Source: Verrucomicrobiota bacterium
GTDB lineage: Bacteria > Verrucomicrobiota > Verrucomicrobiia > Limisphaerales > J093
Reading direction: 5' to 3'
Length of the DNA stretch: 64,000 bases
Assembly: GCA_022710935.1 (NCBI GenBank)
Contig: JAKLFY010000004.1
Coordinates: 62,001 to 126,000, forward strand
The translations under genes and the position numbers were made by a program. The stretch's first letter is position 1. Each line of letters begins with the position of its first letter. The notes beneath the pieces are model-generated. The model saw only the letters and a list, made by a program, of their open reading frames with translations, was not told the DNA's origin and made no database searches. Below, piece after piece: positions 25,740-59,431 of this stretch.

Positions 25740-25760
25740 GTTGTGCCTGAGTCTGCTCTC

Positions 25761-30347: not shown

Positions 30348-30383
30348 GCGAATGACAGCGCTTCCCACGCCCACGTTCGTCCC

Positions 30384-30401
30384 GCCGACTTTCGAGTCGG
30401 C
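30384..30401. repeat. Short perfect hairpin between Gfo/Idh and hydrolase genes
   Basis: GCCGACT-TTCG-AGTCGGC is a 7-bp stem with a TTCG tetraloop. It resembles one half of the double-hairpin element at 19500-19574 and may be a half-unit of that family, or an mRNA processing or stabilising structure in this transcript. Confidence 0.55.
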
Positions 30402-30453
30402 GCGCGTCTCCAACTCGGTAGACCGATGGGTGCCACCGAAATCCCGGCGCGCC

Positions 30454-31602
30454 CTACTTGGTCTTCTTGACCTTCTCCCACTTCGCGGTTTTGGCGGATT
30501 GCAGGACGGCGTCGCAGACGTACTGGGTTTCGAGCGCCTCGGCGAAGGTGGGACTGGCTGGCTTGCCCTTGGCCAGGCCGGTCAGGAAATCCGCGAGCTG
30601 ATGCACAAACGAATGCTCGAACCCGATGTTCAGCCCCGGCACCCACCACTTGTCCATGTACGGATGATCGCCGCCGTGGTCTGTCACGTGGATCGAGCGC
30701 CAGCCTCGGACTTTGCCTTCATCGCGGTGATCGAAGTAGGCCAGGCGGTGGAGATCGTGCAGATCCCAGGCAATGCTCGCCTTCTCGCCATTGATCTCGA
30801 AGGTGTAAAGCGCCTTGTGGCCGCGGGCGTAGCGCGTCGACTCGAACGTCGCCAGCGAGCCGTTGGCAAACCGGCAAAGGAACGCGCAGGCATCGTCGAT
30901 GCCCACCTTTTGCATCTTGCCCGTGAGCTGGTGCTTGCGCTCCTTCACGAAGGTCTCGGTCATCGCCGTCACCGATTCGATCCGCCCGTTGAGCCAAAGG
31001 GCGGTGTCGATGCAGTGGGCCAGCAGGTCGCCGGTGACGCCGCTGCCAGCCGCCTTCACATCCAGCCGCCACAGCGAATCGCCTCCCTGCGGAACGTCCT
31101 TCGAGATGGTCCAGTCCTGCAAAAACTTCGCGCGGTAATGGAAGATCTTCCCAAGGCGCCCCTCGTCGATCAGCTTCTTGGCCAGCGAAACCGCCGGGAT
31201 GCGGCGGTAGTTGAAGGAGACGAAGTTGGGCACGCCGGCCTTCTCGACGGCCTTGACCATGCCTTCGGCCTCCTTGCCGTTGCGGGCGAGCGGCTTCTCG
31301 CACAGGATCATCTTGCCCGCCTTGGCGGCGGCGATCGCCACCTCCGCGTGCATGTTGTTCGGCAGGCAGAGATCGATCAGGTCAATGTCGTCGCGCGCCA
31401 GGAGCTTGCGGTAATCCGTCTCGACGGACTCAAACCCCCACTGGGCGGCGTGGGCCTTGGCCCTCTCCTCGTTCGAGTCGCAGATCGCCTTCAGGACAGG
31501 CCTGTATTCGAGGTCGAAGAAATTCCAGACTTTGCGGTGCGCGTTCGAGTGTGCCCGGCCCATGAAGCCGCAGCCGATCAAGCCGATATTGAGTGTTTTC
31601 AT
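30454..31602 (-). CDS. Gfo/Idh/MocA-family oxidoreductase
   Basis: The NAD(P)-binding Rossmann N-terminus ([20 protein letters not shown]) is followed by the family's EKP motif ([20 protein letters not shown]) with the key Lys, then the substrate domain ([20 protein letters not shown]). At 382 residues it is of usual length. It has no signal peptide and is cytoplasmic. Members oxidise or reduce sugars and inositols. Placement upstream of a glycan hydrolase suggests sugar catabolism, but this is inference. The C-terminus is Lys-rich ([11 protein letters not shown]). Confidence 0.9.
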
Positions 31603-31663
31603 ACGTGATATGCTTCCCCCGGTTTGCAGGAACAGCCGCCCGACTGCAAGGATGAAATGCGCC

Positions 31664-31736
31664 GAACCCGCGTATTCGACACCCCGTCCGTGCGCATGGC
31701 GGTCAGACTTCGCAAGAGGACTGCGATGCGGGCTAG
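31664..31736. repeat. CTAGCCCGCAT-family repeat, copy at 31.7 kb
   Basis: A 73-bp unit with ends GAACCCGCGT and ATGCGGGCTAG; the interior CGCATGGCGGTCAGACTTCG matches the copy at 44036-44109 and, inverted, those at 25761 and 58956. The marC TAG stop (31733-31735) lies within the right end. It occupies most of the gap upstream of the Gfo/Idh gene. Confidence 0.85.
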
Positions 31737-32362
31737 AGCAGCTTGCCCTTCATGGCCTCGAGGGCGTTGAAGACGAACTGGAAGGCGATGGCCACCAGCA
31801 ATAGACCCATGATCCGCGTAATCAGGCGCAGGACGATCGGGCTGAGCCATTTGGCGCCGTGGGCCGAGAGGCGGAGCGTGACATAGCTCACGCCAGCCAC
31901 GGCCAGGATGCAGAAAAAGAGCGCGATCTGCTTCCCAATGCTGCTCCCGGCCTGGTTGTGCAGCAGGATCGCAGTCGTAATCGCCCCGGGGCCGGCCAGC
32001 ATCGGCACGGCCAGCGGCGCAATCGCAATGTCCTGCTTCTCGGTGCCGGCGTCCGTTTCTTCCGAGGTTTCATGCACGCGCGACCGCTGGGCCTTGAGCA
32101 TGTCGAGGGCGACGAGCAAGAGCACGATCGACCCCGCCATCTGGAAGGCAGGCATCGTGATGCCCAGGAAACGGAAGATGTAGTTCCCGACCCAGGCGAA
32201 CACGATCAGCATGCCCGCCGACACGGCACAGGCCAAGCCCGCCATCTTGATCCGCTGCTTGGGCGTGTCGGTGGGCGTCATCGCCAGAAACGCCGGCACC
32301 GCCGCGATCGGATCGACGATCACAAACAGGGAACTGAAGGCCAACAGGACAAACTCAATCAT
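31733..32362 (-). CDS. MarC-family integral membrane protein
   Basis: This 209-residue protein is strongly hydrophobic, with about six transmembrane segments. It begins [20 protein letters not shown], a typical MarC/UPF0056 start, and has the second conserved block [16 protein letters not shown]. The transport or signalling role of the family is not established. The ATG at 32362 overlaps the end of the upstream gene (stop TGA at 32355-32357) by 8 bp, so the two are coupled. Its last codon runs into a repeat that supplies the TAG stop. Confidence 0.88.
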
Positions 32363-33959
32363 CGCCCACACGACACGGGGCCAGGATCGCCTCCTGCATC
32401 CCGTGTATGATTTTCTTATCCGCCGGGCAGAGGGTGGCCAGCACGCCCCCCAACCGGGCCCGCGCGGCCTCACCCTCGCCCGCAACGAAATAATAGGGAC
32501 ACAGCCGCGCGCGTCCAGCCATAGGAACCGTCTGGCCGCGCTCGAAATCGAACCATGCCGCGGCCACCGTTCTCGGCTTGTGATAGCGCTGCAGCACATA
32601 GGGAGAACGCGCGAAGCTCCGCAGCGCATTGTCGACCGCGGCGCTCCAATCGCCGGCCGACAAATCGCTGCCCAGGGCCACACTGCGGGCTCCCCAGGCC
32701 TGGTCGGAGTAGCCGGACACCTTGAGGACGAGATCGCGTTCGCGCTGCGACAGGCCCTTGAGCTGCTGCCAGTCGGTCAAATCGAGGCCGGGCAATGCGG
32801 CATGCGGCGGCAACGGCGCGGGATCCATCACCCATGTCACGGGCACGCAGGCCAGCAGGCGCTCCAGGAAACCCTCCCCCAACTCCTGGCGCCAGAATCC
32901 CCGCAGGTTCCTGTTCCACAACAACGCGAAGAGCATCTTCTCCTCGAAAATCGGCTTGGGCGGCGGTGTGAGCCGGATGCGCCTCGCCAACGCCAACTCG
33001 AACAGGCCGCGGGCGGCCCGGACATTCTCGAGGTCGAACAACTCGAAGAACCGATACACCGCATCCCCCGGCTGGACCCCGTCGAACTCCGCATCCCGCA
33101 CCCGATACTCGACCTCTTGCTCTCCGCTCTCTCTACTCTGTACCCCGCCCTCCGCGCCTTCCAGCTCCCCCGCCAGCCACTCCATCTCCGGTCGATAGGT
33201 CGCCGCCTCCTGAGAGACGACAATATGGACGCGCGGGGCGTCGCCGAAAATCGAGGCGAATCCATCGATCATGCCGCGCGGGCCGCCAAGAATGCCGGCG
33301 CTTGGCGCGTGCTCGCTCGAAATGCGCCCCCCACGGCCGAGGCCCCCAGTCGGGGCGCCTCCGGACGCACCAGGATCCGGCTGGCCGCAGCCGCTGGCGC
33401 CCGCGCTCTCAAGCGCCGCATAGGTCCGGTTCAGCCACGCCGTCAGCCCGATGCCGCCCGGGACGGAATCCAATTCGGTGATGACGAATCCGTCGTCTGT
33501 GAGCAGGAGATCCGGCCGGATCACGCGGGGCAGATCGTTCTTGAACGACGGATGCCGTTGCCAGGCGATCATCTCGGATGGTTTGCCGCGATCGAGCCAT
33601 TCGGCCACCCACGCGGGCTGCTTGCCGGCCACGCTCTGTCGATAGAGCAGGTTCACCGCCCGATTGAACTGGAGCAGGACGCGGCCCAGACGCTCGAGAT
33701 CGGACGCCAGCGCGCGATCGAGAGGAAACGACGCGGGCGCAATCCGCCATCGCATCCCGGCGAACAAGCCGCCCGACGGCAGCGCGGCGCGGACAGCGCG
33801 GGCTGTGCGCTGGGCGGACAGGGCCGGCATGGCCTCGCCCCCGGTCGTGACCTCATTCCGTTGAGGACCGGGATCCGGGAACTCGGATGGAACCGCCTGG
33901 ACCTCGACCGGGTTCTTGCTGCGGATTTCTCCCATAACGATTCGAGTCTTGAGGTTCAT
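32355..33959 (-). CDS. Uncharacterised protein, possible ATP-grasp-like fold
   Basis: I do not recognise this 534-residue protein with certainty. Features suggest an ATP-grasp-type ligase: RPDLLLTDDGFVITELDSVP followed by GGIGLTAWLNRTY, and near the C-terminus DLVLKVSGYSDQAWGARSVA, SPYVLQRYHKPRTVAAAWFD and ARLCPYYFVAG. These recall glutathionylspermidine-synthase-like and other ATP-grasp enzymes, but no substrate can be named. A Gly/Ser-rich low-complexity stretch lies in the middle (GASGGAPTGGLGRGGRISSE). I chose the ATG at 33959. It overlaps marC by 8 bp, so the two proteins may work together. Confidence 0.6.
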   Translation of the reverse strand: MNLKTRIVMGEIRSKNPVEVQAVPSEFPDPGPQRNEVTTGGEAMPALSAQRTARAVRAALPSGGLFAGMRWRIAPASFPLDRALASDLERLGRVLLQFNRAVNLLYRQSVAGKQPAWVAEWLDRGKPSEMIAWQRHPSFKNDLPRVIRPDLLLTDDGFVITELDSVPGGIGLTAWLNRTYAALESAGASGCGQPDPGASGGAPTGGLGRGGRISSEHAPSAGILGGPRGMIDGFASIFGDAPRVHIVVSQEAATYRPEMEWLAGELEGAEGGVQSRESGEQEVEYRVRDAEFDGVQPGDAVYRFFELFDLENVRAARGLFELALARRIRLTPPPKPIFEEKMLFALLWNRNLRGFWRQELGEGFLERLLACVPVTWVMDPAPLPPHAALPGLDLTDWQQLKGLSQRERDLVLKVSGYSDQAWGARSVALGSDLSAGDWSAAVDNALRSFARSPYVLQRYHKPRTVAAAWFDFERGQTVPMAGRARLCPYYFVAGEGEAARARLGGVLATLCPADKKIIHGMQEAILAPCRVGDD

Positions 33960-34080
33960 ACCCGCAGCCTTCGGGGACGGCAAAGGAAAAAGTAACTTGG
34001 AGGGTCGTTTCAGAGAGGAGAGCAGGTTGATGGGCTGAGTGGGCGCGTTTTCTTTGGGTTCGCGCGCGGAGCCGTCGGGC

Positions 34081-43633: not shown

Positions 43634-44046
43634 GCGACGAGTGCGTCTGGAATCTCAAAACGCGGACTTTGCGCGGCCCTTGGCTCCGCCGGCCGCACTG
43701 CACGGCCCACAGGGACCGTGTGCTTCACTGGCTGCACCGGGATCAGGTTTCCGGGCGCCGAGCTCACAAAGGTGACCCTGTCCTCCATCTGGAAACCAAA
43801 GTCACCCTGCCGGCCCCTTGACATCAGGTAGCCGGCCACCGCCTCCTGTATGGCCTGCGCCAGTTCGATTCCCGCTTGCGGCTCCCACCCCTCCCACATC
43901 GCCTGAACCGCATCGAGCCAGGGGTTACGTGGCGCACAAGGCCCCTCTGCCAACCGCGTCGCCCAGTCATTTCGCCGCCGGGCCACGGACCGCAGGTAGG
44001 CCGCGTCGAGTTTACCGTCGTTCAGGGCAAATATCTTAACCCGCAT
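43630..44046 (-). CDS. Hypothetical protein whose start codon lies in a repeat
   Basis: The 138-residue frame (MRVKIFALNDGKLDAAYLRS; ARRRNDWATRLAEG; LDAVQAMWEGWEPQAGIELA) is not a family I recognise. No signal peptide or membrane segment is visible. Its first codons (ATG CGG GTT) are the end of the repeat at 44036-44109, so the present N-terminus may have been created by the repeat and the original start lost. It overlaps the SecB-like gene by 4 bases. It could equally be a truncated remnant. Confidence 0.4.
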   Translation of the reverse strand: MRVKIFALNDGKLDAAYLRSVARRRNDWATRLAEGPCAPRNPWLDAVQAMWEGWEPQAGIELAQAIQEAVAGYLMSRGRQGDFGFQMEDRVTFVSSAPGNLIPVQPVKHTVPVGRAVRPAEPRAAQSPRFEIPDALVA

Positions 44047-44152
44047 GTTTCACACCCCGTCGGTGCACATGGCGGTCAGACTTCGCGAGAGAACTGCTAT
44101 GCGGGTTAGCCCGGTTACGGTTCCTCGCGCAGCGTGTGAAATAACCGGGCAA
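44036..44152. repeat. Two repeats side by side: CTAGCCCGCAT-family and CTAGCCCGGT-family
   Basis: 44036-44109 has ends TTAACCCGCAT and ATGCGGGTTAG and interior CACATGGCGGTCAGACTTCG, matching the copies at 25761, 31664 and 58956. Directly abutting it, 44106-44152 reads TTAGCCCGGTTACGGTTCCT...AATAACCGGG, matching 26271-26318. The two families share the T-A-G/A-CCCG edge and overlap by 4 bases, which suggests they insert next to or into each other. Confidence 0.8.
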
Positions 44153-46932: not shown

Positions 46933-48447
46933 TCAGAAGCCGTTTCCGCCAGCGATTGCCCGGGCCAGTGGATCGAGCAGCAACCCGGGCAATGCACCCA
47001 ACACAAGGACGCCGACCGCCGCCGCGATCAGCACAAGGCGGTCAGTCCACGGCACGACAATCCGCGAGGCCTCTTCGTCGCCCGTGGCGACATACGCCTG
47101 CTTCAAGACGCGCAAGTAATAGTACAACGACACCGTGCTCATCGCGATCGCGATGCCGACCAGCCACAACAGGCCCAGGCCTGCGGGGTCGGCCCCCATG
47201 GCCGCCGTAAACAAGCCGAACTTCCCGAAGAACCCAGCCAGGGGCGGGATGCCGGCAAGCGACAACAAGAAGACCATCAGACACAAGGCCAGCAGCGGCG
47301 ACCGGCGGCTGAGTCCGGCCAGCGCGTCGATCCGCCCATCGCCCGATGCCCTCTCGATCACCGACGCCACGCCGAAGGCCCCCACGGTCGTCAACCCGTA
47401 CGTCGCCACGTAATACAGGACCGCGGACAGCGCCGCGGAACGCTGCGAAGGATAGCCCATCGCCATCAGCCCGAGCAGGACGTAGCCCGCATGCGCGATG
47501 GCCGAATAGGCCAACAACCGCCGCAGATGCCCCTGCACAATCGCCGTGAGATTGCCCAACACCATCGAGCCCACGGCCAAAACCGCCAGCACCGGCAGCC
47601 AGCCCGCGCGCAACTGTCCCCACGCGCCGCTGCCTTCCACACCGGCGAATCCCAGCACGGCGATCTTGGCCAGAACGAAGAAGCTCGCCACCTTCGATCC
47701 CGACGCGATCAGGGCGGCGGCCGGGACGGGTGCGCCTTCGTAGGCGTCGGGCGCCCACAAATGAAACGGCACCACGGCCACTTTGAATCCGAATCCCATG
47801 ATCACCATCACCACGGCCACGGCGAGCAGCGGATCGAGACGATGCACCCGCAGGCCGGCCGCGATCTCGGTCAGGTTGGTCGCTCCCGACAACCCGTAAA
47901 CAAGGCTCAATCCGAAGAGGGTGAATGCGGCGGCCACGCTGCCGAAGAGAAAGTACTTCAGCGCCGCTTCGCTGGCATGGCGCGTTCGCTTGTCCAGCGC
48001 CGTCAGCACGTAAAGCGAGAGGCTGGTCAGTTCGAGCGACACGAAGATCATCAGGATCTCCTCGGTGCTCACCAGGAACATCATCCCCACCGTCGCGAGC
48101 AGCAGGAGCGCGAAATACTCGCCCACATGCTCGGTGAACTCCGCCTGCGCCGAGATGCCCGCGGTGAACAGCGTCAGCACCACCACGAAGATCTTGACCC
48201 ATTGGGTCAGCGAATCGACCACCAGCACCCCGTCCAGAAACCGCAGATGCGCCCGGCTCAGCGCGAGAATTCCCAGCGTCACCAGGCAGCCAAGTCCCGC
48301 CGCCGCGCTGGCCGTCAGAAACCGCTGCCGCAGGGGGGCCGACCGCATGAGCCCCATGTCGATGAACAGCACCGCCACAGCCGCCAGCACGAGCGCGGTC
48401 TCCGGCGCCAACGCCACCAGCAAATCGCCGTAACCCACGCCTGTCAT
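46933..48447 (-). CDS. nuoN: NADH-quinone oxidoreductase subunit N
   Basis: The 504-residue antiporter-like membrane subunit has many transmembrane helices and the lysine/histidine-bearing helix segments of the family (GVEGSGAWGQLRAGWLPVLA; LLAYSAIAHAGYVLLGLMAM; SLAGIPPLAGFFGKFGLFTA). It probably forms one proton channel of complex I. The ATG overlaps the preceding nuoM stop as ATGA. It is the last gene of the cluster, and a membrane-protein unit follows after 120 bp. Confidence 0.92.
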   Translation of the reverse strand: MTGVGYGDLLVALAPETALVLAAVAVLFIDMGLMRSAPLRQRFLTASAAAGLGCLVTLGILALSRAHLRFLDGVLVVDSLTQWVKIFVVVLTLFTAGISAQAEFTEHVGEYFALLLLATVGMMFLVSTEEILMIFVSLELTSLSLYVLTALDKRTRHASEAALKYFLFGSVAAAFTLFGLSLVYGLSGATNLTEIAAGLRVHRLDPLLAVAVVMVIMGFGFKVAVVPFHLWAPDAYEGAPVPAAALIASGSKVASFFVLAKIAVLGFAGVEGSGAWGQLRAGWLPVLAVLAVGSMVLGNLTAIVQGHLRRLLAYSAIAHAGYVLLGLMAMGYPSQRSAALSAVLYYVATYGLTTVGAFGVASVIERASGDGRIDALAGLSRRSPLLALCLMVFLLSLAGIPPLAGFFGKFGLFTAAMGADPAGLGLLWLVGIAIAMSTVSLYYYLRVLKQAYVATGDEEASRIVVPWTDRLVLIAAAVGVLVLGALPGLLLDPLARAIAGGNGF

Positions 48448-49943
48448 GATCCACCTCCCCTCTCGAGGCCCTGGATCAGGGGCGTCACGCTCGGCACGAT
48501 GAGGTCCAGCAGCAGCCGCGGATAAAGCCCGATCGCCAACGTCGCCCCCAAGAGCAATACCGCCCCCGCGCGCTCGGGAAGCGAGATGGGCTCGATCGCC
48601 TCTCCCGCCCGTTCGCCGCGCGCGTCACCCGCCGAATCGGCGAAGAAAGCACGCTGAAGCGCCCGCAGCAGATACGCCACACCCAGCACAATCCCCACGC
48701 CCGCCCCCAGGCCGGCAGTCGGGAACGCCCGCCACGACCCGATCAAGACCTGGAGTTCGGCCACGAACCCGCTGAAACCGGGCAGCCCCATCGACGCCAT
48801 GCCCGCCAACACGAACGTGACGGCTGCAAACGGCATCGCTCGGGCCAGGCGCATCCCCTCGAGTTCGTCCAACTGCCGCGTGTGCGTCCGGTCGTACACC
48901 ATCCGGCCCACGACGGCGAAGAGCAGGCCTGCGATGACGCCGTGCGAGAACATCTGCAGCACGGCGCCGCTGAGCCCCACCTCGTTCAGAGTGGCCAGCC
49001 CCAGCAGGACAAATCCCATGTGGCTCACACTCGAATAGCCGATCACAAACTTGAAGTCCTTCTGGACCAACGCCGTCATCGCACCCGCCACGATGCCCAC
49101 GACGGCCAGCACCGCAATCTCCGTCTGCCAGTGCCTCACACCCGCGGGGAACAGGGTCATGGCAACCCGCAGACACCCGTACGCCCCCAGCTTCATCACG
49201 ACCCCCGCCAAAAGCATCGACGCCCCGGTCGGGGCGGCCACGTGGCCGGTCGGCGCCCAGGTGTGAAACGGCCACAGACCCGCCAGAATCCCAAAGCCCA
49301 CAAAGACCAGCGGGAACGCCCACCGCTGAAAGCTCTCCGGATAGTTGACCCGCGCCAAAGCGGTCAGATCGAATGTCGGCACGCCCGTCTGGGATCGCGC
49401 CACGACGAACGCCGCGATCAGGCCGATCAGCACCAGCGCGCTTCCGGCAAAGGAGTAGAGCGCCAGCTTCATCGCGCCGTATTCCTTGCGGGTCGAACCC
49501 CAGATCGCGATCAGGAAGTACTTCGGAATGATCGCGATCTCGTAGAAGACGAACAGGACAAACGCGTCGAAGCTCAGGAACACCCCGTACACTCCGCCAA
49601 TCAGGGCCAGGTAGAACGCGAAAAACTCCTTCGCGCGCCGCGTGATGTTCCACGAGAACAGAATCCCCGCCACCGCCGCCACCGCCGTCAGAAGGATCAG
49701 CGTGACGCTGATCCCGTCGACGGCGAGGTGGTAATCGATGCCCAGGGACGGGATCCAGCTCGTCCTGGCAATGGTCCGCAGCCCGCTTCCCGCCTGGTAT
49801 TGGAATGCCCCGCCGAATGCCGCAATCGCCCCGGCCAGAGCCGTGCCAAGCGCCACCCACCGCGCCCGCCCGGCCTGGTCCCGCGGCAGGAGCATCAGGA
49901 CCGCCACGCCCGCAAATGAAATGTAGATTGTCCAGGCGAACAT
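48444..49943 (-). CDS. nuoM: NADH-quinone oxidoreductase subunit M, second copy
   Basis: This 499-residue antiporter-like subunit has the conserved features VDGISVTLILLTAVAAVAGI, FYEIAIIPKYFLIAIWGSTR, WPFHTWAPTGHVAAPTGASM and FKFVIGYSSVSHMGFVLLGL. I took the ATG at 49943, two bases after the first nuoM copy, rather than the longer open frame. Its sequence differs clearly from the adjacent nuoM at 49946-51508, so this is an old duplication and not an assembly repeat. It overlaps nuoN by 4 bp. Confidence 0.92.
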   Translation of the reverse strand: MFAWTIYISFAGVAVLMLLPRDQAGRARWVALGTALAGAIAAFGGAFQYQAGSGLRTIARTSWIPSLGIDYHLAVDGISVTLILLTAVAAVAGILFSWNITRRAKEFFAFYLALIGGVYGVFLSFDAFVLFVFYEIAIIPKYFLIAIWGSTRKEYGAMKLALYSFAGSALVLIGLIAAFVVARSQTGVPTFDLTALARVNYPESFQRWAFPLVFVGFGILAGLWPFHTWAPTGHVAAPTGASMLLAGVVMKLGAYGCLRVAMTLFPAGVRHWQTEIAVLAVVGIVAGAMTALVQKDFKFVIGYSSVSHMGFVLLGLATLNEVGLSGAVLQMFSHGVIAGLLFAVVGRMVYDRTHTRQLDELEGMRLARAMPFAAVTFVLAGMASMGLPGFSGFVAELQVLIGSWRAFPTAGLGAGVGIVLGVAYLLRALQRAFFADSAGDARGERAGEAIEPISLPERAGAVLLLGATLAIGLYPRLLLDLIVPSVTPLIQGLERGGGS

Positions 49944-49945
49944 GA

Positions 49946-51508
49946 TCAGCAAGGCCCCAGGCGCTCGACCCAGAGGAGCACGGTACGGTGAATCACGCCA
50001 ATGACCAACTGCGGGTAGATCCCCAGCACAAACATCAGCGCCGTGGCGGGCGCGACCATCCAGATCTCCGCCCGGCTCAAGTCGGGGAAGGCCGCCCACC
50101 GCGCCGGCAACGGCCCGTGAAAAACCCGTTCGAGGAACGTCAGCAGAAACACCGCGGTGATGAGAAGCCCGGCCGTCGAAACCGCGGCAGCCCACGGCGC
50201 CAGGGCAAATGTGCCCTTGAAAATCAGGAACTCACCCACGAACCCGTTGAGGCCCGGCAAGCCCAGCGATGCGAACGCCGCCACCCCCATCAGACCGGCG
50301 AGCACAGGCGCCGGCTTCCGCAGCCCGCCGAAGTCGTCCAGTCCTCGCAGGCCGCCGGCCCGCCGCTCGATTAGTGCCACGAAACCGAAAAGCACCGCGG
50401 CGGTCAGCCCGTGATTGAACATCTGGAGCAGAACGCCGTTCAAGGCCGCCGCTTTCTCCACCGCCCAGCGGGCCTCTTCTCCCGTCACCCGCAGCGCGGC
50501 GAACATTGCCAACAGACAGTAGCCCAGGTGGTTCACCGACGAATAGGCCAGCATCCGCTTCAGATCCCGCTGCGCAAACGCCGCCGCCGCCGAGCAGACG
50601 ATCGTCAGCACGGCCAGACCCAAAAGCGGCGTCTCCCACGCCCGCATCTGGTCCGGAAAGATCGGCACCAGAATCCGCAGGAAACCGTACACGCCCATCT
50701 TGGACAGCGCCCCCGTCAGAAGCATGGTCGTGCCCGTCGGGGCCGCCGCGTAAGCCGAGGGCAGCCACGTGTGAAACGGCAGCACCGGCACCTTCACCGC
50801 AAATCCCAGAAACGCCCCGAAGAAGACGGCTTGAGCCAAGGCGTCAGCGGACATCCCGGACCAGCCCAGGTGGGCATGCAGAAGCGCCGCCGTCTGATGG
50901 GTCCGACCGAAGTCCGAGAGTTCGAGGAAATTGAATTTGCCCGTCGCGAGGAACAGCGCGAGGAAGGCCAGCAGCAGACCCACGCTGCCCGCCATGGTGT
51001 AAATGAAGAACTGCGTCGCCGCCCGACTCCGGTCCGGACCGCCCCAGAGCCGGACCAGGAAGAACGCCGGGATCAGACTCAATTCCCAGAAGAGGAACCA
51101 GTGGAAGAAATTCAGCGCGGTGAACGCCCCGAACAGCCCGGCTTCGAGCCAGAGCACCAGCGCGAAGTAGAGGGGGACGCGTCCCTCGATCCGCCACGAC
51201 ACCAGCAGCGCCAGCGGCACGAGAAGCGCCGCCAGCATCACCATCAGCAGCCCCATGCCGTCCACGCCCACAAAGTACTCGACGGCCAGCGTCGGGATCC
51301 ACGCCCGTCGCTCGACATACTGCAACGCCGTCGTATCCCGGTCGAATCCCGCCCAGAGCGCCCCCGCCATAGCCAGGGCGAGCAGGCTCACGCCCAGGCC
51401 CAGGCGCCGGGCGAGTGTCTTCTGCCCCGGCGGCAGAGCGGCAACGATTAGCCCGCCCACCAGCGGGATCAAGGTCAGGAGCGTGATGGAGCCAAACGGG
51501 TTCATCAT
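49946..51508 (-). CDS. nuoM: NADH-quinone oxidoreductase subunit M, first copy
   Basis: The protein has 520 residues: VDGMGLLMVMLAALLVPLAL, FWELSLIPAFFLVRLWGGPD, LPFHTWLPSAYAAAPTGTTM and LKRMLAYSSVNHLGYCLLAM. These are the Lys- and His-bearing helices of antiporter-like subunits. The ATG at 51508 overlaps the nuoL stop as ATGA. With the following gene it makes two nuoM genes in tandem between nuoL and nuoN. That arrangement is known from so-called 2M complex I types, thought to pump additional protons. Confidence 0.92.
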   Translation of the reverse strand: MMNPFGSITLLTLIPLVGGLIVAALPPGQKTLARRLGLGVSLLALAMAGALWAGFDRDTTALQYVERRAWIPTLAVEYFVGVDGMGLLMVMLAALLVPLALLVSWRIEGRVPLYFALVLWLEAGLFGAFTALNFFHWFLFWELSLIPAFFLVRLWGGPDRSRAATQFFIYTMAGSVGLLLAFLALFLATGKFNFLELSDFGRTHQTAALLHAHLGWSGMSADALAQAVFFGAFLGFAVKVPVLPFHTWLPSAYAAAPTGTTMLLTGALSKMGVYGFLRILVPIFPDQMRAWETPLLGLAVLTIVCSAAAAFAQRDLKRMLAYSSVNHLGYCLLAMFAALRVTGEEARWAVEKAAALNGVLLQMFNHGLTAAVLFGFVALIERRAGGLRGLDDFGGLRKPAPVLAGLMGVAAFASLGLPGLNGFVGEFLIFKGTFALAPWAAAVSTAGLLITAVFLLTFLERVFHGPLPARWAAFPDLSRAEIWMVAPATALMFVLGIYPQLVIGVIHRTVLLWVERLGPC

Positions 51509-53586
51509 GAATCGCCCCAAATGAACAGCAACAACAGCACCACCAGCGCCATGCCCAGCGCACGCAGATAGTCGTGCACCTGCCCGCTCTGAAAGCGCGA
51601 GCCGGTCTGCCCGCCGCGGGCAACCCGCCGACACGCCTGGTCGAATCCCAGGTTGATGCCGTAGTCGTCCAGGGCCCGGGTCAGCCAGGCGCACCCGACG
51701 ACAACCGCGCCGATGGCGAAAACGATCCCGCCCCAGACCCAGCGGTCCAAGGCATCGCAGATCCAGGCCCAGGCGGCGTGCCAGCGCACCACCGTGCGGG
51801 CATAGAATTCATCCACATAGTACTTGCCCCGGAGCACCGCGAAGAAGGTTGGCTGATACCGCTCGATGGCGTCCGGGGCCTCCGGGCTTGTGATCGGCTG
51901 CCGCCCATACCAATGCCAGCCCAGCCCGAAACCGGTCAGCACGATCAGCGCCGACAGGAGGATCATCGGCCAGTGCTCGCGGGAGAAAAGTGCACTCGCG
52001 TGGAACTCGACCGGTTCGCCCGTCAAATAACCCTGAAACCATGGCCAGACCGGCGTCCCGACAAATCCCAACACCACCGCGAACGCCGCCAGCACAATCA
52101 AGGGCGCCGTCATCACAGCCGGACTCTCGTGCGGCGTGTCGCGACGCGATGCATGGGCAGCCGCGGCGCGCCCGGCCCCGCCCCGGTATGCCCCGCCAAA
52201 CACATAACAGACCTGCCGCGTCATGTAGAACGCCGTCAGAAGCGCCCCGCACAAACCCAGGTAAAACGGCGCCGCCGACACCGTCCAGCCGTGCGCGGCG
52301 TGCAGGATGGCGTCCTTGCTCCAGAATCCCGAGAAGAACAGCGGCACGCCGGCCAGAGCCATCATGCCGACGCCATAGGTCGCGAAGGTGACCGGCATCC
52401 AGCGCCGCAGTCCGCCCATGCGCCGGATGTCCTGTTCCTCATGGACGCCGTGAATGACCGAGCCGGCCCCGAGGAACAGCAGCGCCTTGAAAAAGGCGTG
52501 CGTGATCAGGTGAAACATGCCCACCGCCACGCCCCCCACGCCCAATCCCATCATCATGAAGCCAAGCTGCGAGACGGTGGAATACGCCAGAATGCGCTTG
52601 ATGTCGGTCTGGGCCACCGCGATCGACGCCGCAAACACCGCCGTCAGCACCCCCACCCAAGTCACCGCCTGCAGCGCCGTCGTTGTCTCCGCCGCCCCTT
52701 CCGGATGCGCCGCCATCAGCGGATAAACGCGCGCCACGAGAAACACGCCGGCCGCCACCATTGTCGCCGCATGGATCAAGGCGCTCACCGGCGTCGGCCC
52801 CTCCATCGCGTCCGGCAGCCAGACATGCAGCGGAAGCTGGCCGGACTTGCCGATCGCCCCGCAGAAAAGCAACAGGCTGATCGCCGTCGCCACACCCAGC
52901 CCGCCGACGGTCGTTTGGGCGACCAGCCGGGTCAGGGCCGAATGTTCGAGGCAGCCCGCGCCGTCGTCGTAGAACTGCAGTGTGCCCGTTTGGGCGTAAA
53001 GCCAGACGATCCCGAGCAGAAAGCCGACGTCACCCACACGGGTGGTCAGGAACGCCTTCTTCGCCGCGGCGGCGGCGCTCGGTTTGTGGTACCAGAATCC
53101 AATCAGCAAATACGATGCGAGCCCCACCAGTTCCCAGCAGATGAACAGAAGCAGCAGGTTGTTCGCGATCACCAGGCCCAGCATCGCCGCGGCGAACAGC
53201 GCCAAAAAACCGAAGAAGCGCGTGAAGTTCTCGTCGTGCGCCATGTAGCCCACGCTGTAAACGAAGATCATCAGCCCCACCAAAGTCACCATGACTAGCA
53301 TCGACGCCGTCAGCGGGTCCAGCACCCACCCCAACTCGAGATCCGTCGGCCCCAGCGCAAACCAAACAAAGCTGAATCTGTCGCGTGCCGGCACGCCCTG
53401 CCCCTGCCCCGCCCCGCCCAGCGTCGTCCAAAACGCGACGAGCGACAGGACAAGGCTCAACGCGATCGAACCGATGGCCAGACCGGCAGCCAGCGTCCTG
53501 TGCCGCTGCCGCAGCAGCGCGATCACCCCCGCCGCGGCGAGCGGGAGAGCCGGGATCAACCAGAGATGAGGCGTGATGGCGGTCAC
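51505..53586 (-). CDS. nuoL: NADH-quinone oxidoreductase subunit L
   Basis: The 693-residue subunit has the NuoL hallmarks: LGWVLDPLTASMLVMVTLVG, ICWELVGLASYLLIGFWYHK, LPLHVWLPDAMEGPTPVSAL and TDIKRILAYSTVSQLGFMMM, followed by the long C-terminal part that forms the lateral helix and final membrane segments. At 693 residues it is somewhat longer than the commonest NuoL (about 610-660). Whether this reflects a longer lateral helix, as in two-NuoM complexes, needs structural modelling. It overlaps nuoK by 4 bp. Confidence 0.93.
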   Translation of the reverse strand: MTAITPHLWLIPALPLAAAGVIALLRQRHRTLAAGLAIGSIALSLVLSLVAFWTTLGGAGQGQGVPARDRFSFVWFALGPTDLELGWVLDPLTASMLVMVTLVGLMIFVYSVGYMAHDENFTRFFGFLALFAAAMLGLVIANNLLLLFICWELVGLASYLLIGFWYHKPSAAAAAKKAFLTTRVGDVGFLLGIVWLYAQTGTLQFYDDGAGCLEHSALTRLVAQTTVGGLGVATAISLLLFCGAIGKSGQLPLHVWLPDAMEGPTPVSALIHAATMVAAGVFLVARVYPLMAAHPEGAAETTTALQAVTWVGVLTAVFAASIAVAQTDIKRILAYSTVSQLGFMMMGLGVGGVAVGMFHLITHAFFKALLFLGAGSVIHGVHEEQDIRRMGGLRRWMPVTFATYGVGMMALAGVPLFFSGFWSKDAILHAAHGWTVSAAPFYLGLCGALLTAFYMTRQVCYVFGGAYRGGAGRAAAAHASRRDTPHESPAVMTAPLIVLAAFAVVLGFVGTPVWPWFQGYLTGEPVEFHASALFSREHWPMILLSALIVLTGFGLGWHWYGRQPITSPEAPDAIERYQPTFFAVLRGKYYVDEFYARTVVRWHAAWAWICDALDRWVWGGIVFAIGAVVVGCAWLTRALDDYGINLGFDQACRRVARGGQTGSRFQSGQVHDYLRALGMALVVLLLLFIWGDS

Positions 53587-53894
53587 CCTTTCATTTCCTC
53601 GATTTGATCCAGGTTGGTCGTCCGGTAATGCCGGTACACGGCGATGACCAGGGCCAGGCCAACCGCCGCCTCAGCGGCCGCAATTGCGATCGCGAACAAA
53701 ACGAACATCACGCCCGTGAGCGCCTCCGGGTGCGGACCGTGCCGCCAGAAGGCAATGAAATTCAGGTTCGCCGCATTCAGCATCAGCTCGATCCCGATCA
53801 GGACCACGATCGCGTTGCGCCGCGTGAGCACGCCGGCCAGCCCAATCCCGAACAGAAGGGCCGCCAGAACCAGATAGCGCGCGAGTTCTCCCAT
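53583..53894 (-). CDS. nuoK: NADH-quinone oxidoreductase subunit K
   Basis: The protein is 103 residues with three transmembrane helices; the conserved Glu residues lie in VVLIGIELMLNAANLNFIAF and AAAEAAVGLALVIAVYRHYR. This Mrp-like small subunit is part of the proton path. The length is typical. It lies 3 bp downstream of nuoJ and overlaps nuoL by 4 bp. Confidence 0.93.
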   Translation of the reverse strand: MGELARYLVLAALLFGIGLAGVLTRRNAIVVLIGIELMLNAANLNFIAFWRHGPHPEALTGVMFVLFAIAIAAAEAAVGLALVIAVYRHYRTTNLDQIEEMKG

Positions 53895-53897
53895 AGA

Positions 53898-54446
53898 TCA
53901 ATCCTCGGGCCGGCCCTCGACCGGTCCCCGCTCCCCGGGCTTCGCCCTCTGCGCAGGGCCGTCTTCCCTCAGCGCCACGAGCGCCGCCCCGATCAGCGCC
54001 ACCGTGAGAAGAACCCCCACCACTTCGAGCGCCACGACGTATCGCGTCATGAGCAGATCCCCGATCTCCTTCACGGCCGGCACCGGCGCAGAGGATGGCG
54101 CGCGGCCCGTCAGGCCGCTCCCCAGAATGGCCGAGACGACGGCGCCCGACACCAGCAGCGCGATGGCCAGACCGAGCGTCCACGGCCTGAACGCCAGCGC
54201 CTCGTGCATGGCCTCGAAGTTCCGCGTGAGCAACAGCGCGACGACAATGAGAATCGCCACGGCGCCGACGTAGACCAGCAACTGGGCGAAGCCGACAAAC
54301 TCGGCGCGCAGTTGGAGGAACGCCACCGCCAGACCCGCGAACGAGACCACTCCGCACAGGGCGCAGTGCACCACGTTGCGCGCGGCCATCGCGCCCGCCG
54401 CGCCGGCCAGAATCGCCGCTGCTGTGATGAGAAAGGCGATGTCCAT
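53898..54446 (-). CDS. nuoJ: NADH-quinone oxidoreductase subunit J
   Basis: The 182-residue membrane subunit contains the typical VVHCALCGVVSFAGLAVAFL and FAQLLVYVGAVAILIVVALL segments. It starts at ATG 54446 (IAFLITAAAILAGAAGA). The C-terminus is polar (GPAQRAKPGERGPVEGRPED). It sits 13 bp downstream of nuoH and directly upstream of nuoK. Confidence 0.9.
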   Translation of the reverse strand: MDIAFLITAAAILAGAAGAMAARNVVHCALCGVVSFAGLAVAFLQLRAEFVGFAQLLVYVGAVAILIVVALLLTRNFEAMHEALAFRPWTLGLAIALLVSGAVVSAILGSGLTGRAPSSAPVPAVKEIGDLLMTRYVVALEVVGVLLTVALIGAALVALREDGPAQRAKPGERGPVEGRPED

Positions 54447-54459
54447 TGTCAGTTCCAGG

Positions 54460-55656
54460 TCAGGCAGCCATGCGGTAGGTCCGCGGACCGATGTGTTGTC
54501 CGGCAAACAGCCGCCGCCCCAGCACGACATAAGGCACGCCCACCAGGCTCGCGCACAGGAGCCAGCGGGCCAGCCCGGCGCCGGCGAAAGTCCACTGCGC
54601 CGTGTAGTGCCAGAGGGCGGCGGACATCGCGTTCAAGAGCACCAGCGGCAGGAGGAATTTCCAGGCCAGATTCATCAGGTGATCCGCTCGCAGGCGAGGC
54701 AGCGTTCCGCGCAGCCAGATAAACAGCGCGACAAAGCCGCCCAATTTCAGGAAGAACCACATGTACGAAGGCACCCACTCGAGCCAGAGGACCGGGGCGC
54801 GCCATCCGCCCAAAAACAGCGTGATCCCCAACGCGCTCACCGCGAACATCCCCAGGTACTCCCCAATGAAAAACAGGGCATACTTGAATCCCGAGTACTC
54901 GACCAGGTGCCCGGCGATAATCTCCGATTCGCCCTCCGGCAGATCGAATGGGGCGCGATTCGACTCGGCCGTCGCCGCCACGGTGAAAAGCAGCAGACCG
55001 GCCAGGCCCCACGGTGTGAACACATGCCAGCGCGCCAGCCATCCGCCATAATGCCCGCCCTGCGCGTCGGTGATATCGACCAGAGACATCGAGCCCGCCA
55101 GCATGACGACCGGCAGCGTCGAGAGAATCAGCGGCAACTCGTAACTGATCATTTGGGCAATCGCCCGCATGCCGCCCAGGAGCGAGTATTTGTTGCGGCT
55201 CGACCACCCCGCCATGAACACCGCCAGTTCGATGCACGCCCCAACCGCGAAGAAGAACAACAGGCCCGCGTTGAAGTCAACCGCCGCCATGTTGCGTCCG
55301 ACGGGGATGACCGCGTAGGCCAGCAGCACCGGCACCACCATCACCAGAGGCGCCACAAAATGCACAACACGGTCCGCCCCGCTCGGCACAATGTCCTCTT
55401 TGGTCAGCATCTTGATGAAATCCGCCATCGGCTGCAGCAGCCCCCACGGACCGACCCGGTTGGGCCCATACCGGTTCTGGATGCGTCCCAGTCCCTTGCG
55501 CTCGATCAGGACGGTCAGCGCAAACAGGGTCATGAACACACCGAGAATCGCCGCCGCCGAAATCACCAGCGACGCCCAGGGTTGCAGGGCGGCCGGCAAC
55601 TGGCCCACCAGCCAGTGCTTCAGGCTCACAAAAAGCTGATCGAGCGCGTCAAACAT
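54460..55656 (-). CDS. nuoH: NADH-quinone oxidoreductase subunit H
   Basis: The 398-residue quinone-chamber membrane subunit has conserved loops ERKGLGRIQNRYGPNRVGPW, GLLQPMADFIKMLTKEDIVP, MAGWSSRNKYSLLGGMRAIA, QMISYELPLILSTLPVVM and ESNRAPFDLPEGESEIIAGH. All key charged residues of the quinone-site loops appear intact. I chose the ATG at 55656 (MFDALDQLFVSLKHW). It follows nuoI after 80 bp. Confidence 0.93.
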   Translation of the reverse strand: MFDALDQLFVSLKHWLVGQLPAALQPWASLVISAAAILGVFMTLFALTVLIERKGLGRIQNRYGPNRVGPWGLLQPMADFIKMLTKEDIVPSGADRVVHFVAPLVMVVPVLLAYAVIPVGRNMAAVDFNAGLLFFFAVGACIELAVFMAGWSSRNKYSLLGGMRAIAQMISYELPLILSTLPVVMLAGSMSLVDITDAQGGHYGGWLARWHVFTPWGLAGLLLFTVAATAESNRAPFDLPEGESEIIAGHLVEYSGFKYALFFIGEYLGMFAVSALGITLFLGGWRAPVLWLEWVPSYMWFFLKLGGFVALFIWLRGTLPRLRADHLMNLAWKFLLPLVLLNAMSAALWHYTAQWTFAGAGLARWLLCASLVGVPYVVLGRRLFAGQHIGPRTYRMAA

Positions 55657-55736
55657 CGTCGCTGCCGGAGGCGCCACGCCCCCGACCAAGGGCGTATGCT
55701 CCGGGAATTGGAATGGTCTGGCGGGCCGCGCGCATC

Positions 55737-56339
55737 TTAAGTCCTGTCTGAACCGGCAGGTGTTGCCCCGGACGTCGTTCCCGCCGCAGGCGCCGGCGCC
55801 GCCCCCGGTTTGGCCTTCGTCTCAGCGTGGCCCGGTCCCGCCGCAAGCCGGGCGTTCACCTGCCCCGCCTCGACGGGATGCAGCCCGAGATAGTACGAGG
55901 CGGGTTTGGCGAGATCCATCTTGTGCAGGAGAAGGGATCCGAACCGGTCGGCCGTGCTCAGCTCGAATTCCGTGTTCATCTTGATCGAGTCGAAGGGACA
56001 AACCTCGACACAGATCTGGCAGCTCATGCAGACCGAAATGTCGAGGTCGAAGATCCGCGGACGCCTCCGCGGCCGGCCCTTCTCGTCCCGGTCAAGAACG
56101 ATATAGATGCACTGCGGCGGGCACTCCTTTTCGCAGATCTTGCAGGCCACGCACCGCAGGCCCTTCTCGGGATCCTCGCCGTCATAGACGAGCATCGGGA
56201 AACTGCGCGCCTTCTCCGGCAACGGAAGGCGTTCGTCCGGGTACTGGATCGTGACCAGCCGCGCCGGGTCGTAATAGCTGCCGACGAAATTCCGGGCTGT
56301 CTCGACGAGGCCCTTGAGAATGCCGCTGCCCAGATTCAT
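55737..56339 (-). CDS. nuoI: NADH-quinone oxidoreductase subunit I (2x[4Fe-4S])
   Basis: The protein has 200 residues with two intact ferredoxin motifs for clusters N6a and N6b: [12 protein letters not shown] and [12 protein letters not shown]. The start is ATG 56339 ([15 protein letters not shown]). The C-terminal about 40 residues form an Ala/Pro-rich extension ([20 protein letters not shown]) not found in standard NuoI and probably flexible. It overlaps the nuoD stop as ATGA. Confidence 0.93.
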
Positions 56340-57595
56340 CGGTCCACCTCCCCCATCACGATGTCGACCGCCCCCAGGATGACCACGGTGTCCTGAAGCG
56401 TCGCTCCCCGGCACATGTCCTCGAGAATCGTCAGGTTGATGAAGCTGGGCGGACGGATCCGATAGCGGTAGGGATTGGCCGATCCGTCGCTGATCAGGTA
56501 AAAGCCGAGCTCGCCCTTCGGCGCCTCGATGCGCCCGTACACCTCGCCCACTGGCGGCTTGAACCCGCGCAGCCGCGCCTTCGGGTTGATGATCGGGCCC
56601 GCAGGCACCGCCCGCAGCGCCTGCTGCAGGATGCGCACCGATTCGCGCATCTCGAGCATCCGGATCATGTAGCGATCGTAAACGTCGCCGTGCGCCCCCA
56701 GCGGAACACCAAACTCGAATCGATCGTAGATCCCGTAGCGATCCACCCTCCGCAGATCGTAGTTCACACCGCTCGCCCGAAGCATCGGTCCCGTCACCCC
56801 GGCCTGCACCGCCAACTCGGACGAAAGCACGCCGATCCCCTGCGTGCGCGCCATCAGGATCTCATTGGTCGACAAAAGGTTCTCGAACTCGTCCAGGAAC
56901 CGGGGCAGGGCGTCCACCACGTCCCGGCAGGCCTCGATCCAGCCATTCGGGAGATCGCATCGGCATCCGCCAAATCGCATGTAGTTGCACATCATGCGCG
57001 AGCCCGTCAGGGCCTCGACCAGTTCGAGAATCTTCTCTCGCTCGCGGAAGGCATACATGATCGGCGTGCCCATCGCCCCCAGCTCCTGCAAGAGAAACCC
57101 GATCAGGCACGCGTGGTTGAGCACCCGGGTCAATTCGGCCGTGATCACCCGGATGTACTCCGCCCGCTCCGGCACCTCCAGCCCGGCCAGGCGCTCGACG
57201 GCCAGGGCGTAGGCCCAGTTGTTCGTCAGCGAACAGAAATAGTCGAGCCGGTCCGTGTACGGCATCGCGGCCAAATACGTCCCCCCCTCGCCCAGCTTCT
57301 CGTGGTTGCGGTGCAAATACCCGAACACCGGCTTGAGCCGGACCACCCGCTCCCCGTCCAGCACGACATCCATCCGAAACACCCCGTGCGTCGATGGATG
57401 GTGCGGCCCCACCGCCACTTCGAGCAGCGCCCCCTCGGAGTCGTCCCGCGAGATCGGATGCGGGCTGGCCTCGGCCTCCGCCTGCGGCGCCTTGTCCGGG
57501 CGCGGCAAGACCGCCGCGCGCGGCGGACTCTCCGGCACCAGATCGCCGGTGGACAACGCCTCGATCAGAACGTCTTCGGGGATCCGGCGGTTCAT
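56336..57595 (-). CDS. nuoD: NADH-quinone oxidoreductase subunit D
   Basis: The 419-residue 49-kDa-type subunit has the conserved [20 protein letters not shown] motif, [20 protein letters not shown] and [20 protein letters not shown], and ends [12 protein letters not shown]. These line the quinone site near cluster N2. The N-terminal about 45 residues ([20 protein letters not shown]) are an extra proline-rich leader. The ATG at 57595 overlaps the nuoC stop. Confidence 0.93.
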
Positions 57596-58227
57596 GCGTC
57601 GGCCTCGATCGGATAATGGCGCCGCGCCTTCTCCCTCAGGTCGTCGTGCGGCGTCGGCTCGTATTCGTAATCGTCCGGCTCCACGTAGTCCTTCCGCATC
57701 GGAGAATCCCGGAACTCGTCCCACATCAGGATCCGCCTCAGATCCGGATGCCCCTCGAACACAATGCCGAAAAGATCGTACGCCTCGCGTTCCTGGAATT
57801 CCGCGCTCCGCCACACGGGCGTCAGCGAGGCAAGGCGCGCCTGGTCCACCCGGTTGACCGTGCGCTGACGCAGGATGACCGGCCCGTGCTTCAGCCGCAT
57901 CGAGTAGAGGTGATACACGGCTTCGAGATGCCCCGGGACACGCCGTTCCCGGCACTCCTCGAACACCCGCTCCTGCCCGTCGACCAACCGCGTCACACGC
58001 ACATGCTCCTCCACAACCCGGTCCAACCAATCGACCCCGCTGACATTCGAGCAGTAATCGAGCGCCAACCGCGAATCGTCCCGCAGGAACCGCGCCACCT
58101 CGAGCGCGCGGGCCGGGGGCACAACCAGCGACGCCTGGCCCGGCACGACCCTGTTGCACTGGATGTCAAGCCCGACACCGGGGATTGCGGCTTCGATGCG
58201 GCACTTGATTTGTTCCAGTGTCTCCAC
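57592..58227 (-). CDS. nuoC: NADH-quinone oxidoreductase subunit C
   Basis: The 211-residue 30-kDa-type subunit contains [20 protein letters not shown] and the signature [37 protein letters not shown]. Its start is a GTG at 58227; no ATG fits. It lies 42 bp downstream of nuoB and overlaps nuoD by 4 bp. Confidence 0.92.
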
Positions 58228-58269
58228 AGGCTCGGATTGGGCGCGCGGCGCGCGGTCAAGGAATGTGAT

Positions 58270-58884
58270 TTACTCGTTGCGGGTGATTGGCTTCGGACGC
58301 CACAGGTCGGTGTTCTTGGCCGGGACCAGGTCGTAGGGGCCATACTCCGGCACCGGGAATTCGCCGGGGGCCTCTTCCTGAAACGCCCGGGCGCGGGAAG
58401 GTCCGGTCAGTTTCCGCGAGGCAATCTTCTCTTGGAGCGTGATGAGCGCGTGCAGCAAGGCTTCCGGGCGCGGAGGACACCCCGGGATATGGACGTCGAC
58501 CGGCACATACCGGTCGATCCCCTTGAGAACGTTGTAGCCGCGCTTGAACGGCCCGCCCGAAATGGCGCAGGCCCCCATCGCGATCACGTACTTCGGCTCC
58601 GGCATCTGGTTGTACAGCCGCACCACCTGCGGTGCCATCTTCTTGGTCACTGTCCCCGCCACAATCATCAGATCCGCCTGCCGCGGCGAGGGGCGGAACA
58701 CCTCCGCGCCGAATCGCGCGATGTCGAACCGCGCCATCGAGGCTGCGATCATCTCGATGGCGCAACAGGCCAGACCAAAATTGAGAGGCCAGAGCGAGTT
58801 GCGGCACCCCCAGTTGTAAAGGTCCTGGATCGTCGTGGCGAAGACGCCCTGTCTGCTCAACTCGCTGCGCAGTCCTTCATCCAT
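58270..58884 (-). CDS. nuoB: NADH-quinone oxidoreductase subunit B (cluster N2)
   Basis: The protein has 204 residues. The N2 cluster ligands are in [20 protein letters not shown] (tandem Cys), MGACAISGG and [20 protein letters not shown]. It sits at the junction with NuoD and NuoH. An unusual 140-bp gap upstream, towards nuoA, holds a repeat (58956-59028). The C-terminus ([18 protein letters not shown]) is a short tail. Confidence 0.93.
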
Positions 58885-58955
58885 GCTGATCGCCCTCCTC
58901 CCATTGTCGAGTTTTCGGCTTCGCGATGGTCACAACTCCATGAAACATGCTCTTC

Positions 58956-59028
58956 CAGCCCGCCTGGCAGCCCTCTTGCGAGGTCTGACCGCCCTCTGTG
59001 CACCGCCGGGGTGTACCATGCGGGCTAG
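58956..59028. repeat. CTAGCCCGCAT-family repeat inside the nuo operon
   Basis: The 73-bp unit runs from CAGCCCGCCTGGCAG to ATGCGGGCTAG with interior CGAGGTCTGACCGCCCTC, matching 25761-25834. It separates nuoA from nuoB, and its right end supplies the nuoA TAG stop (59025-59027). Because the following genes lack their own obvious promoter, the repeat is presumably transcribed. Confidence 0.85.
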
Positions 59029-59402
59029 CGCCACCGCAACAACCCCTTCCCCCATGCCCAGACCAGCCCCTCGACCAGCAACAACAGAAAAACCATGATT
59101 GCCACAAACGCCCCCGGCGCCAAACCGGTGAACGACACCGCGAACGGCAGCAGGAAAACAGTCTCGACGTCGAACACCAGAAAGATGATCGCGTAGAGAT
59201 AGTACTGGGATTGGAACCGGATGCGGACATCGCCTTGCGGCGCCAGGCCGCATTCGTAGGCCGCACCCTTGGTGGGACCCGGCTTGGGGGGGGAGACCCA
59301 CACCGCCCACAATCTCGCCAGGCCCAGCATCCCCAGGCAGAAGACGAGACCCGCCGCCAGCATCAGAGCCAGAAACAGGTATGGGTTGGATGCGGACGGC
59401 AT
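59025..59402 (-). CDS. nuoA: NADH-quinone oxidoreductase subunit A
   Basis: The 125-residue membrane subunit has three helices and the conserved loop KGAAYECGLAPQGDVRIRFQ plus YYLYAIIFLVFDVETVFLLP. It begins with ATG 59402; a GTG at 59411 is an alternative. Its C-terminal end (WGKGLLRWR) is followed at once by a TAG that lies inside a repeat. It starts the nuo cluster. Confidence 0.92.
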   Translation of the reverse strand: MPSASNPYLFLALMLAAGLVFCLGMLGLARLWAVWVSPPKPGPTKGAAYECGLAPQGDVRIRFQSQYYLYAIIFLVFDVETVFLLPFAVSFTGLAPGAFVAIMVFLLLLVEGLVWAWGKGLLRWR

Positions 59403-59431
59403 GCGCGGCACGATATCCCGATTCCCATGGT

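Follow-up and report, generated by a model that had tools for sequence, protein, structure and literature searches.

What occupies the 140 nt that separate nuoA from nuoB in this respiratory operon, and does it serve the operon or only reside there? Within the window (the whole stretch of 64,000 nt that was analyzed), a chain of 12 open reading frames (ORFs) at positions 46933 to 59411 resembles a complex I operon, with Pfam run on the first three. The ORF of nuoA (NADH-quinone oxidoreductase subunit A, 128 amino acids; 59025 to 59411, minus strand) matched PF00507 (E value, 5.6e−30) to position 99 of 99, and that of nuoB (204 amino acids; 58270 to 58884, minus strand) matched PF01058 (E value, 3.2e−30). 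With starts picked by coding score, the 11 junctions of the chain measured 140, 42, −4, −4, 80, 13, 3, −4, −4, −7, and 5 nt. The first-pass annotation had described these genes as joined mostly by ATGA overlaps, which is too strong; four of the 11 junctions are −4 overlaps, and the last (5 nt) contains an ATGA that would give a fifth with an alternative start. The wide nuoA-nuoB spacing, with a dispersed palindromic repeat inside the operon, was borne out.

Content and comparison of the nuoA-nuoB gap

The gap (58885 to 59024, minus strand) consists of most of one repeat, R1, a 4-nt linker, a second repeat, R2, and 17 nt matching neither. R1 (58955 to 59028, minus strand; profile match from 59028 to 58956; E value, 3e−15) is a 74-nt imperfect palindrome of the form CTARCCCGCAT...ATGCGGGYTAG, here with the arms CTAGCCCGCAT and AGGCGGGCTGG. 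The left arm, CTAGCCCGCAT, lies at 59018 to 59028 (minus strand) and contains the nuoA TAG. A chance motif was ruled out for this arm, as nine occurrences with at most one mismatch (three exact) were found in the window against 1.17 expected, with a maximum of six in 100 shuffles. A covariance model also matched the nuo copy (contig coordinates C194:120954-121028 in its own genome, G000), and no known RNA family was identified in the window using Rfam at the gathering score. The linker, AAGA (58951 to 58954, minus strand), resembles the GAAA(A)GCATG junctions that follow R1 elsewhere. R2 (58902 to 58950, minus strand; E value, 2.6e−14) lacks its first bases at this site (model positions 6 to 54 of 70). 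Although R2 was first found with a query from the nuo gap, its model was made from 21 full copies, none of them from the nuo locus. Related R2 copies were found elsewhere, and R2 has the arms of R1 around a different center. The earlier description of the gap as largely one repeat copy was therefore correct as to the presence of R1, but R1 makes up only about half of it and 58902 to 58950 belongs to R2. A Shine-Dalgarno-like AGGAGG precedes nuoB (58894 to 58899, minus strand) within an 11-nt stretch, GGGAGGAGGGC (58892 to 58902), that is missing in the sister genome (L211).

The stop codon of nuoA (TAG; 59025 to 59027, minus strand) lies inside the left arm of R1, as had been noted, but the repeat did not provide it. 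NuoA ends at the same codon in all 12 loci compared (the genome itself, its sister, and 10 other genomes of the family), and the last position (99 of 99) of the Pfam NuoA profile falls at residue 127 of 128. The stop is therefore native and R1 sits on it, and R1 as supplier of a new nuoA stop was rejected.

In the sister genome (G001, the only genome of the same genus compared), the nuo operon is syntenic but lacks R1 in this gap. The sister gap measures 58 nt and matches R2 (model positions 1 to 60 of 70), the match starting at the nuoA stop and ending one base ahead of nuoB; relative to it, G000 carries 71 nt extra plus the 11-nt stretch with AGGAGG. A nuoB gene lies close behind nuoA in 10 of 12 other family genomes, with gaps of 25 to 74 nt, and no R1, R2, R3, or D9 (the latter two described below) was identified in these 10 gaps, where the best matches were at chance level (E values, 0.37 and 2.2). 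According to the first-pass annotation, the same repeat at this place in all relatives, together with even RNA coverage, would have argued for a neutral ancient feature. The relatives compared do not all carry it, and the repeats in the nuoA-nuoB gap are lineage-specific. As R2 is common to the sister's gap, the invasion is at least as old as the common ancestor. Among 80 named loci, nuoA was found upstream in 71 (9 without), with a gap of 3 to 300 nt (median, 49 nt). Gap lengths here are approximate, but seven of the 71 were ≥147 nt, so a gap of the size seen in this operon is not odd in the wider comparison. The closest named relatives by NuoB (82 to 77%) were mostly labeled Verrucomicrobia, Verrucomicrobiales, or Limisphaera(les), different labels appearing lower in the ranking, and the host most likely belongs to this group.

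Either G000 gained the 71 extra nucleotides by insertion, or G001 lost them by deletion between GCATG repeats present in the R1 and R2 modules. Further R1-GAAA(A)-GCATG junctions lie at C55, at C121, and at the orthologous pair C54/C168, a recurrence that favors, without proving, an ancestral composite with loss in the sister. The sister gap being an R2 copy, its interpretation as an empty preinsertion site, with GCATG as a 5-nt duplication, was rejected.

Distribution, exchangeable centers, and mosaic partners of R1

A covariance model built from 19 copies gave at least 132 R1 matches in G000 and at least 87 in G001, lower bounds obtained from 150 scored candidates per genome. Other copies in the window include one at 25761 to 25834 (minus strand), whose left-arm TGA is in frame with upstream coding sequence and which the sister carries unchanged at the orthologous site, and a partial copy (model positions 1 to 64) at 3342 to 3402 (minus strand; E value, 1.6e−10). 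A copy at 31665 to 31736 (plus strand) has its right end at the stop codon of a gene that faces it, and at the same site the sister (L205:15918-15991) has a diverged R1-type copy in the opposite orientation. The surrounding 18 kb (15748 to 33991, compared with L205) are 97.0% identical to the sister, with other aligned stretches of the window at ∼90 to 93%; this block may reflect a recent exchange or slow evolution.

Beyond the genus, 9 of 12 other family genomes had no R1 match at an E value of ≤0.001, while G007 and G008 had one each (E values, 9.4e−5 and 1.7e−4) and G012 had two (best, 4.0e−7). Across the order, with stricter filters and an E value of ≤1e−5, R1 was identified in 2 of 146 genomes, both of this genus. 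In G007, G008, and G012, the matching elements keep the arms of R1 around another center, with an R3-like right-hand tail in G012; within the genomes searched, the R1 center is thus confined to the genus, whereas the arms are not. An exact arm pattern, TARCCCGCATRTTTCA-N22-52-ATGCGGGYTA, was present in six of the 293 genomes searched across the order (G000, 16; G001, 5; G007, 3; G008, 1; G012, 2; and G041, which belongs to another family, 3), and a reversed control of this pattern had no matches in the 293 genomes. The same arms with exchanged centers therefore span four genera and two families, and restriction of the whole family to one genus was dropped on finding them in G007, G008, G012, and G041. 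Arms of R1 with other centers were seen in these four genomes at L303 to L305, L308, L309, L312, and L330 to L332, and R3-like tails follow same-arm elements in G012 and G041.

R1 also joins other repeats, always at the same side. To the right of 143 R1 copies lie R3 (24 copies), D9 (16 copies), or R2 (3 copies), and none of the three lies to the left of any of the 143. These 43 composites have the neighbor in the orientation of R1 in 41 cases; all R3 and D9 neighbors agree with R1, whereas two of the three R2 neighbors are reversed. An all-against-all comparison of flanks gave in-register matches for 48 right flanks and 3 left flanks. R3 is an ∼111-nt repeat (GCAAAACCGCGCC...GGGCGCGGTTTTG; for example, at L302 and in the G000 and G001 stretches) that often joins the right end of R1, and in G000 all 40 scored candidates matched it (99 candidates altogether). 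D9 is a 46-nt palindrome (TAGCCCGGTTACGG...AACCGGGCTA) with CTAG-type ends that likewise often joins the right end of R1; by profile, one window copy (44107 to 44151, plus strand) directly follows an R1 copy (44037 to 44109, plus strand), and another lies at 26272 to 26317. Seven pairs of R1 arms were found 606 to 3,125 nt apart. The window also carries a 72-nt repeat pair (AGGCCGGGTCCCCTGACCCGGCG...; 3268 to 3339 and 26958 to 27029; 92% identical) with a related 28-nt unit at 26910 to 26937, and a near-perfect hairpin at 1834 to 1925 with 29-nt arms (97% complementary) and a 34-nt loop.

R1 ends and the stop codons of host genes

Sitting on native stop codons is a habit of R1 at many genes. 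The 143 copies surveyed were identified by profile in stretches of G000 (1.165 Mb) and G001 (1.069 Mb) picked for high-scoring R1 copies, with orthologous copies counted in both genomes, and the 150 nt adjoining each usable end were scored for coding in six frames. The arm trinucleotide at the 133 left ends was TAA in 54, TAG in 45, TGA in 11, and no stop in 23. Upstream of these ends the sequence was forward coding in 59, reverse coding in 9, and not scored as coding in 65. Where it was forward coding, the arm stop was the stop of the gene in 55 of 59 copies and out of frame in 4 (binomial test against 1/3, P = 5e−22), the in-frame to other counts in the two genomes being 31:1 and 24:3. The 131 right ends gave 14 stops in frame and 2 further forward cases; 15 were reverse coding, and 100 were not scored as coding. 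As a background, CTAG outside the repeats, counted on both strands with forward frames only scored, fell at stops 101 times, in other forward frames 121 times, and in neither 544 times. Against this background, left ends were enriched at stops (odds ratio, 4.6; P = 6e−13) and right ends showed no excess (odds ratio, 0.79; P = 0.48).

The asymmetry between the ends was also seen within copies. Where both ends were usable, 45 copies had the left end only on a stop, 6 the right only, and 6 both, and other thresholds gave left-only to right-only counts of 51:6 and 34:4. The 80 solo copies, with no adjoining modules, gave 30 left only, 6 right only, and 6 both (30:6, P = 7e−5). When the G000 codon model was applied to nine same-arm elements of other genera, their left ends were in frame in three cases, off frame in one, and unscored in five. 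For R2 and D9 the numbers were small. The R2 left ends comprised four on a stop, two other forward, and 18 unscored. None of 24 D9 left ends lay on a stop, and D9 right ends comprised 6 stops, 1 other forward, 4 reverse, and 13 unscored.

When the 143 copies were compared with the other genome, 32 could be paired by both flanks (some reciprocally), 55 by one flank, and 55 by none; one had too little flank. Clean empty sites were few, and some contained related remnants. The filled allele at C194:127k reads GCTAG-R1-GCTAG and the other allele has a single GCTAA, with the stop at the same codon. At C4, C113, and C255, a single CTAR in the other allele is set against two ends in the filled one (the left end of C4 being CTGA), along with modules or extra bases. 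As regards TA duplication, four sites thus have one CTAR in the other allele, the rest being complex or holding remnants. The upstream stop codon is the same with and without R1 at C123 and C121 and lies one codon later at C255. Other filled and unfilled pairs (e.g., C35, C213:10036, C190:11720, C163, C186, C153, and C17:9624) were heavily rearranged.

Affinities, origin, and possible roles of R1

The properties of R1 recall several known repeats. GTAG REPs are palindromic, occur in many copies near the 3′ ends of genes, and often give flanking ORFs a TAG stop from their termini (PMC3733652); they are abundant in the verrucomicrobium O. terrae as singles, dimers, and clusters (Di Nocera et al. 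2013, PMC3733652). R1 is similarly palindromic, dispersed, high in copy number, and stop supplying near gene 3′ ends. However, GTAG-type REPs are 20 to 40 nt long with GTAG at one end (PMC3733652), whereas R1 has 74 nt and CTAR at both ends within the stem. A RAYT/Y1 gene flanked by the repeat, by which GTAG-type REPs are recognized, was not found for R1, none of the 12 PF01797 loci of G000 being directly flanked by it. One of these Y1 loci (L036) has R3 and a weak R1/R2-like match (E values, 0.0067/0.0055) ∼1 kb away, and three (L030, L032, and L037) carry repeats of their own (163-nt direct repeats, repeated ∼22-nt units, and 29-nt inverted repeats) that are distinct from R1. Like BIMEs, the R1 family joins different palindromic modules in recurring combinations, but BIMEs are described as alternating in orientation (PMC2817692), while the R1 mosaics are polar, with R1 at the stop and modules to the right only. 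Bacterial MITEs such as RUP, NEMIS, and ERIC (70 to 300 bp) share with R1 a short length, terminal inverted repeats, and a frequent location beside genes, but have arms of 15 to 30 bp rather than ∼11 bp (PMC3733652), and no parental insertion sequence of R1 was found among the loci scanned. The MIRUs of mycobacteria are described as dispersed repeats that enter gene boundaries with little disturbance of flanking expression; they are said to enter start codons and to carry a coupled ORF (PMC12548453), whereas R1 is found on stop codons. R1 was not named in the literature searched at the level of titles and abstract openings. Stop-supplying palindromic repeats are thus already known from the GTAG REPs, and R1 is a variant of REP/MITE-like repeats for which membership in neither class is claimed; its novelty relative to GTAG REPs lies in its length, its ends, its polar mosaics, and the finding of no RAYT gene flanked by it.

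Taken together, the nuoA-nuoB gap is a mosaic of R1 and R2, two related dispersed palindromes lying on the stop that is native to nuoA. The R1 family is probably a nonautonomous REP/MITE-like element, and in this gap R1 would be a tolerated passenger and not a purpose-built regulator. Since the left arm begins with TAG, TAA, or TGA in 110 of 133 copies, a mobile R1 landing on a stop codon would usually re-form that stop and leave the upstream protein unchanged. Stop sites could in this way act as safe harbors where copies build up in packed operons. At nuoA, R1 would have lengthened the gap and placed the stop at the foot of a hairpin with NuoA unaltered; the sister would have deleted R1 between the GCATG copies of the two modules, or the G000 lineage would have gained it. 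Re-formation of the stop would not by itself explain the left-end bias, which may be due to directional insertion or to selection on a transcribed hairpin.

The first-pass annotation had suggested that the palindromic RNA tunes the ratio of NuoA to the rest or guards a processed 3′ end. A putative cis-regulatory hairpin acting on NuoA relative to NuoB in this manner appears improbable. The transcribed strand of R1 alone is predicted to fold with ΔG of −36.1 kcal/mol (a figure without a shuffle baseline), with the stop at its foot, and ribosome stalling has been reported for REPs lying no more than 15 nt from a stop (PMC12306157). However, the 161-nt RNA around the nuo copy folds no better than dinucleotide shuffles (z = −0.07) and the sister has no R1 at nuoA-nuoB, both of which weaken a role specific to nuo, and the same element is found at many other genes. 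A general REP-like effect of R1 on translation termination or the mRNA 3′ end may nevertheless exist. A second possibility, which we consider unlikely, is that selection keeps the whole family as a generic 3′-end device for termination, mRNA protection, or ribosome release, with nuoA as one client. Such a device would account for the orientation bias, both among all copies with two usable ends (45 to 6) and among the solo copies. It also draws on covariation of the arms at the stop positions. Among 122 full copies, 92% have a third stop base that pairs with its counterpart in the other arm, where 50% would be expected, and covariation is also seen at the second base. All 26 distinct sequences matching the arm pattern, which come from several genomes, have the third base mirrored in the opposite arm (14 G-C and 12 A-T), with both A and G types present in the family found in G041, and one orthologous site differs on both sides between the species (TAA..TTA and TGA..TCA). 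Cells with G-U number nine at the second stop base, and those with A-C two. On the other hand, the covariation in R1 largely separates two subfamilies, and common descent can yield covariation; quasipalindrome correction is likewise a mechanism able to produce matched changes in two arms. The third base has four G-U and four A-C cells, and the 9:2 at the second may reflect just that TGA is an allowed stop; selection on the RNA is therefore not proven by these counts. In a 19-row alignment, 92.8% of cells were paired, compared with 31 to 44% when the arms were slid and 91.5% in shuffles (6 of 500 as high), a narrow difference arising because most pairs hardly vary. RNAalifold returned a structure on the 19 rows and none on the 122-row alignment. 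That copies differ between the sister species also speaks against a conserved device.

A third possibility, which we regard as doubtful, is that R1 is a MITE of an IS630/Tc1-type element, with the TA of a CTAG target duplicated around an element R-CCCGCAT...ATGCGGG-Y. The target of IS630 is CTAG, and since CTAG is often a stop in this GC-rich genome, the association with stops would be a by-product. The ends of R1 are CTAR and YTAG in most of the 122 full copies, with the C (left) and G (right) outside the TA kept in 105 and 113 of them, respectively. The terminal inverted repeats pair over 11 positions, with no pairing excess beyond the C of CTAR. CTAG is itself scarce in these 64% GC genomes (190 against 779 expected in the G000 stretches and 232 against 720 in those of G001), and the single-CTAR alleles at C194:127k, C4, C113, and C255 also fit this origin. 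In contrast, no IS630-type parent with R1-like ends was found at the three DDE_3 loci of the two genomes, and the four copies with TGA arms paired with TCA are a misfit to TA duplication. A CTAG target together with purging from genes would account for no more than part of the association with stops and for none of the left-end bias.

The passenger reading of R1 extends, more speculatively, to a superfamily of selfish palindromes built from one pair of arms with exchangeable centers, the arms being stops on both strands. Such elements might enter gene-dense operons harmlessly exactly at stop codons and spread in one orientation as an ordered mosaic, with the third base of the stop mirrored in the opposite arm across families in several genera, and would leave the stop within a transcribed hairpin at scores of genes, those of complex I included; we hold this wider picture only tentatively. 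R1 suggests a route by which repeats enter tight operons, by landing on a stop codon that their own arm re-forms. The many natural sites that are occupied in one of the two species and differ in the other offer a test of whether a hairpin at the stop codon affects termination, coupling, or mRNA ends.
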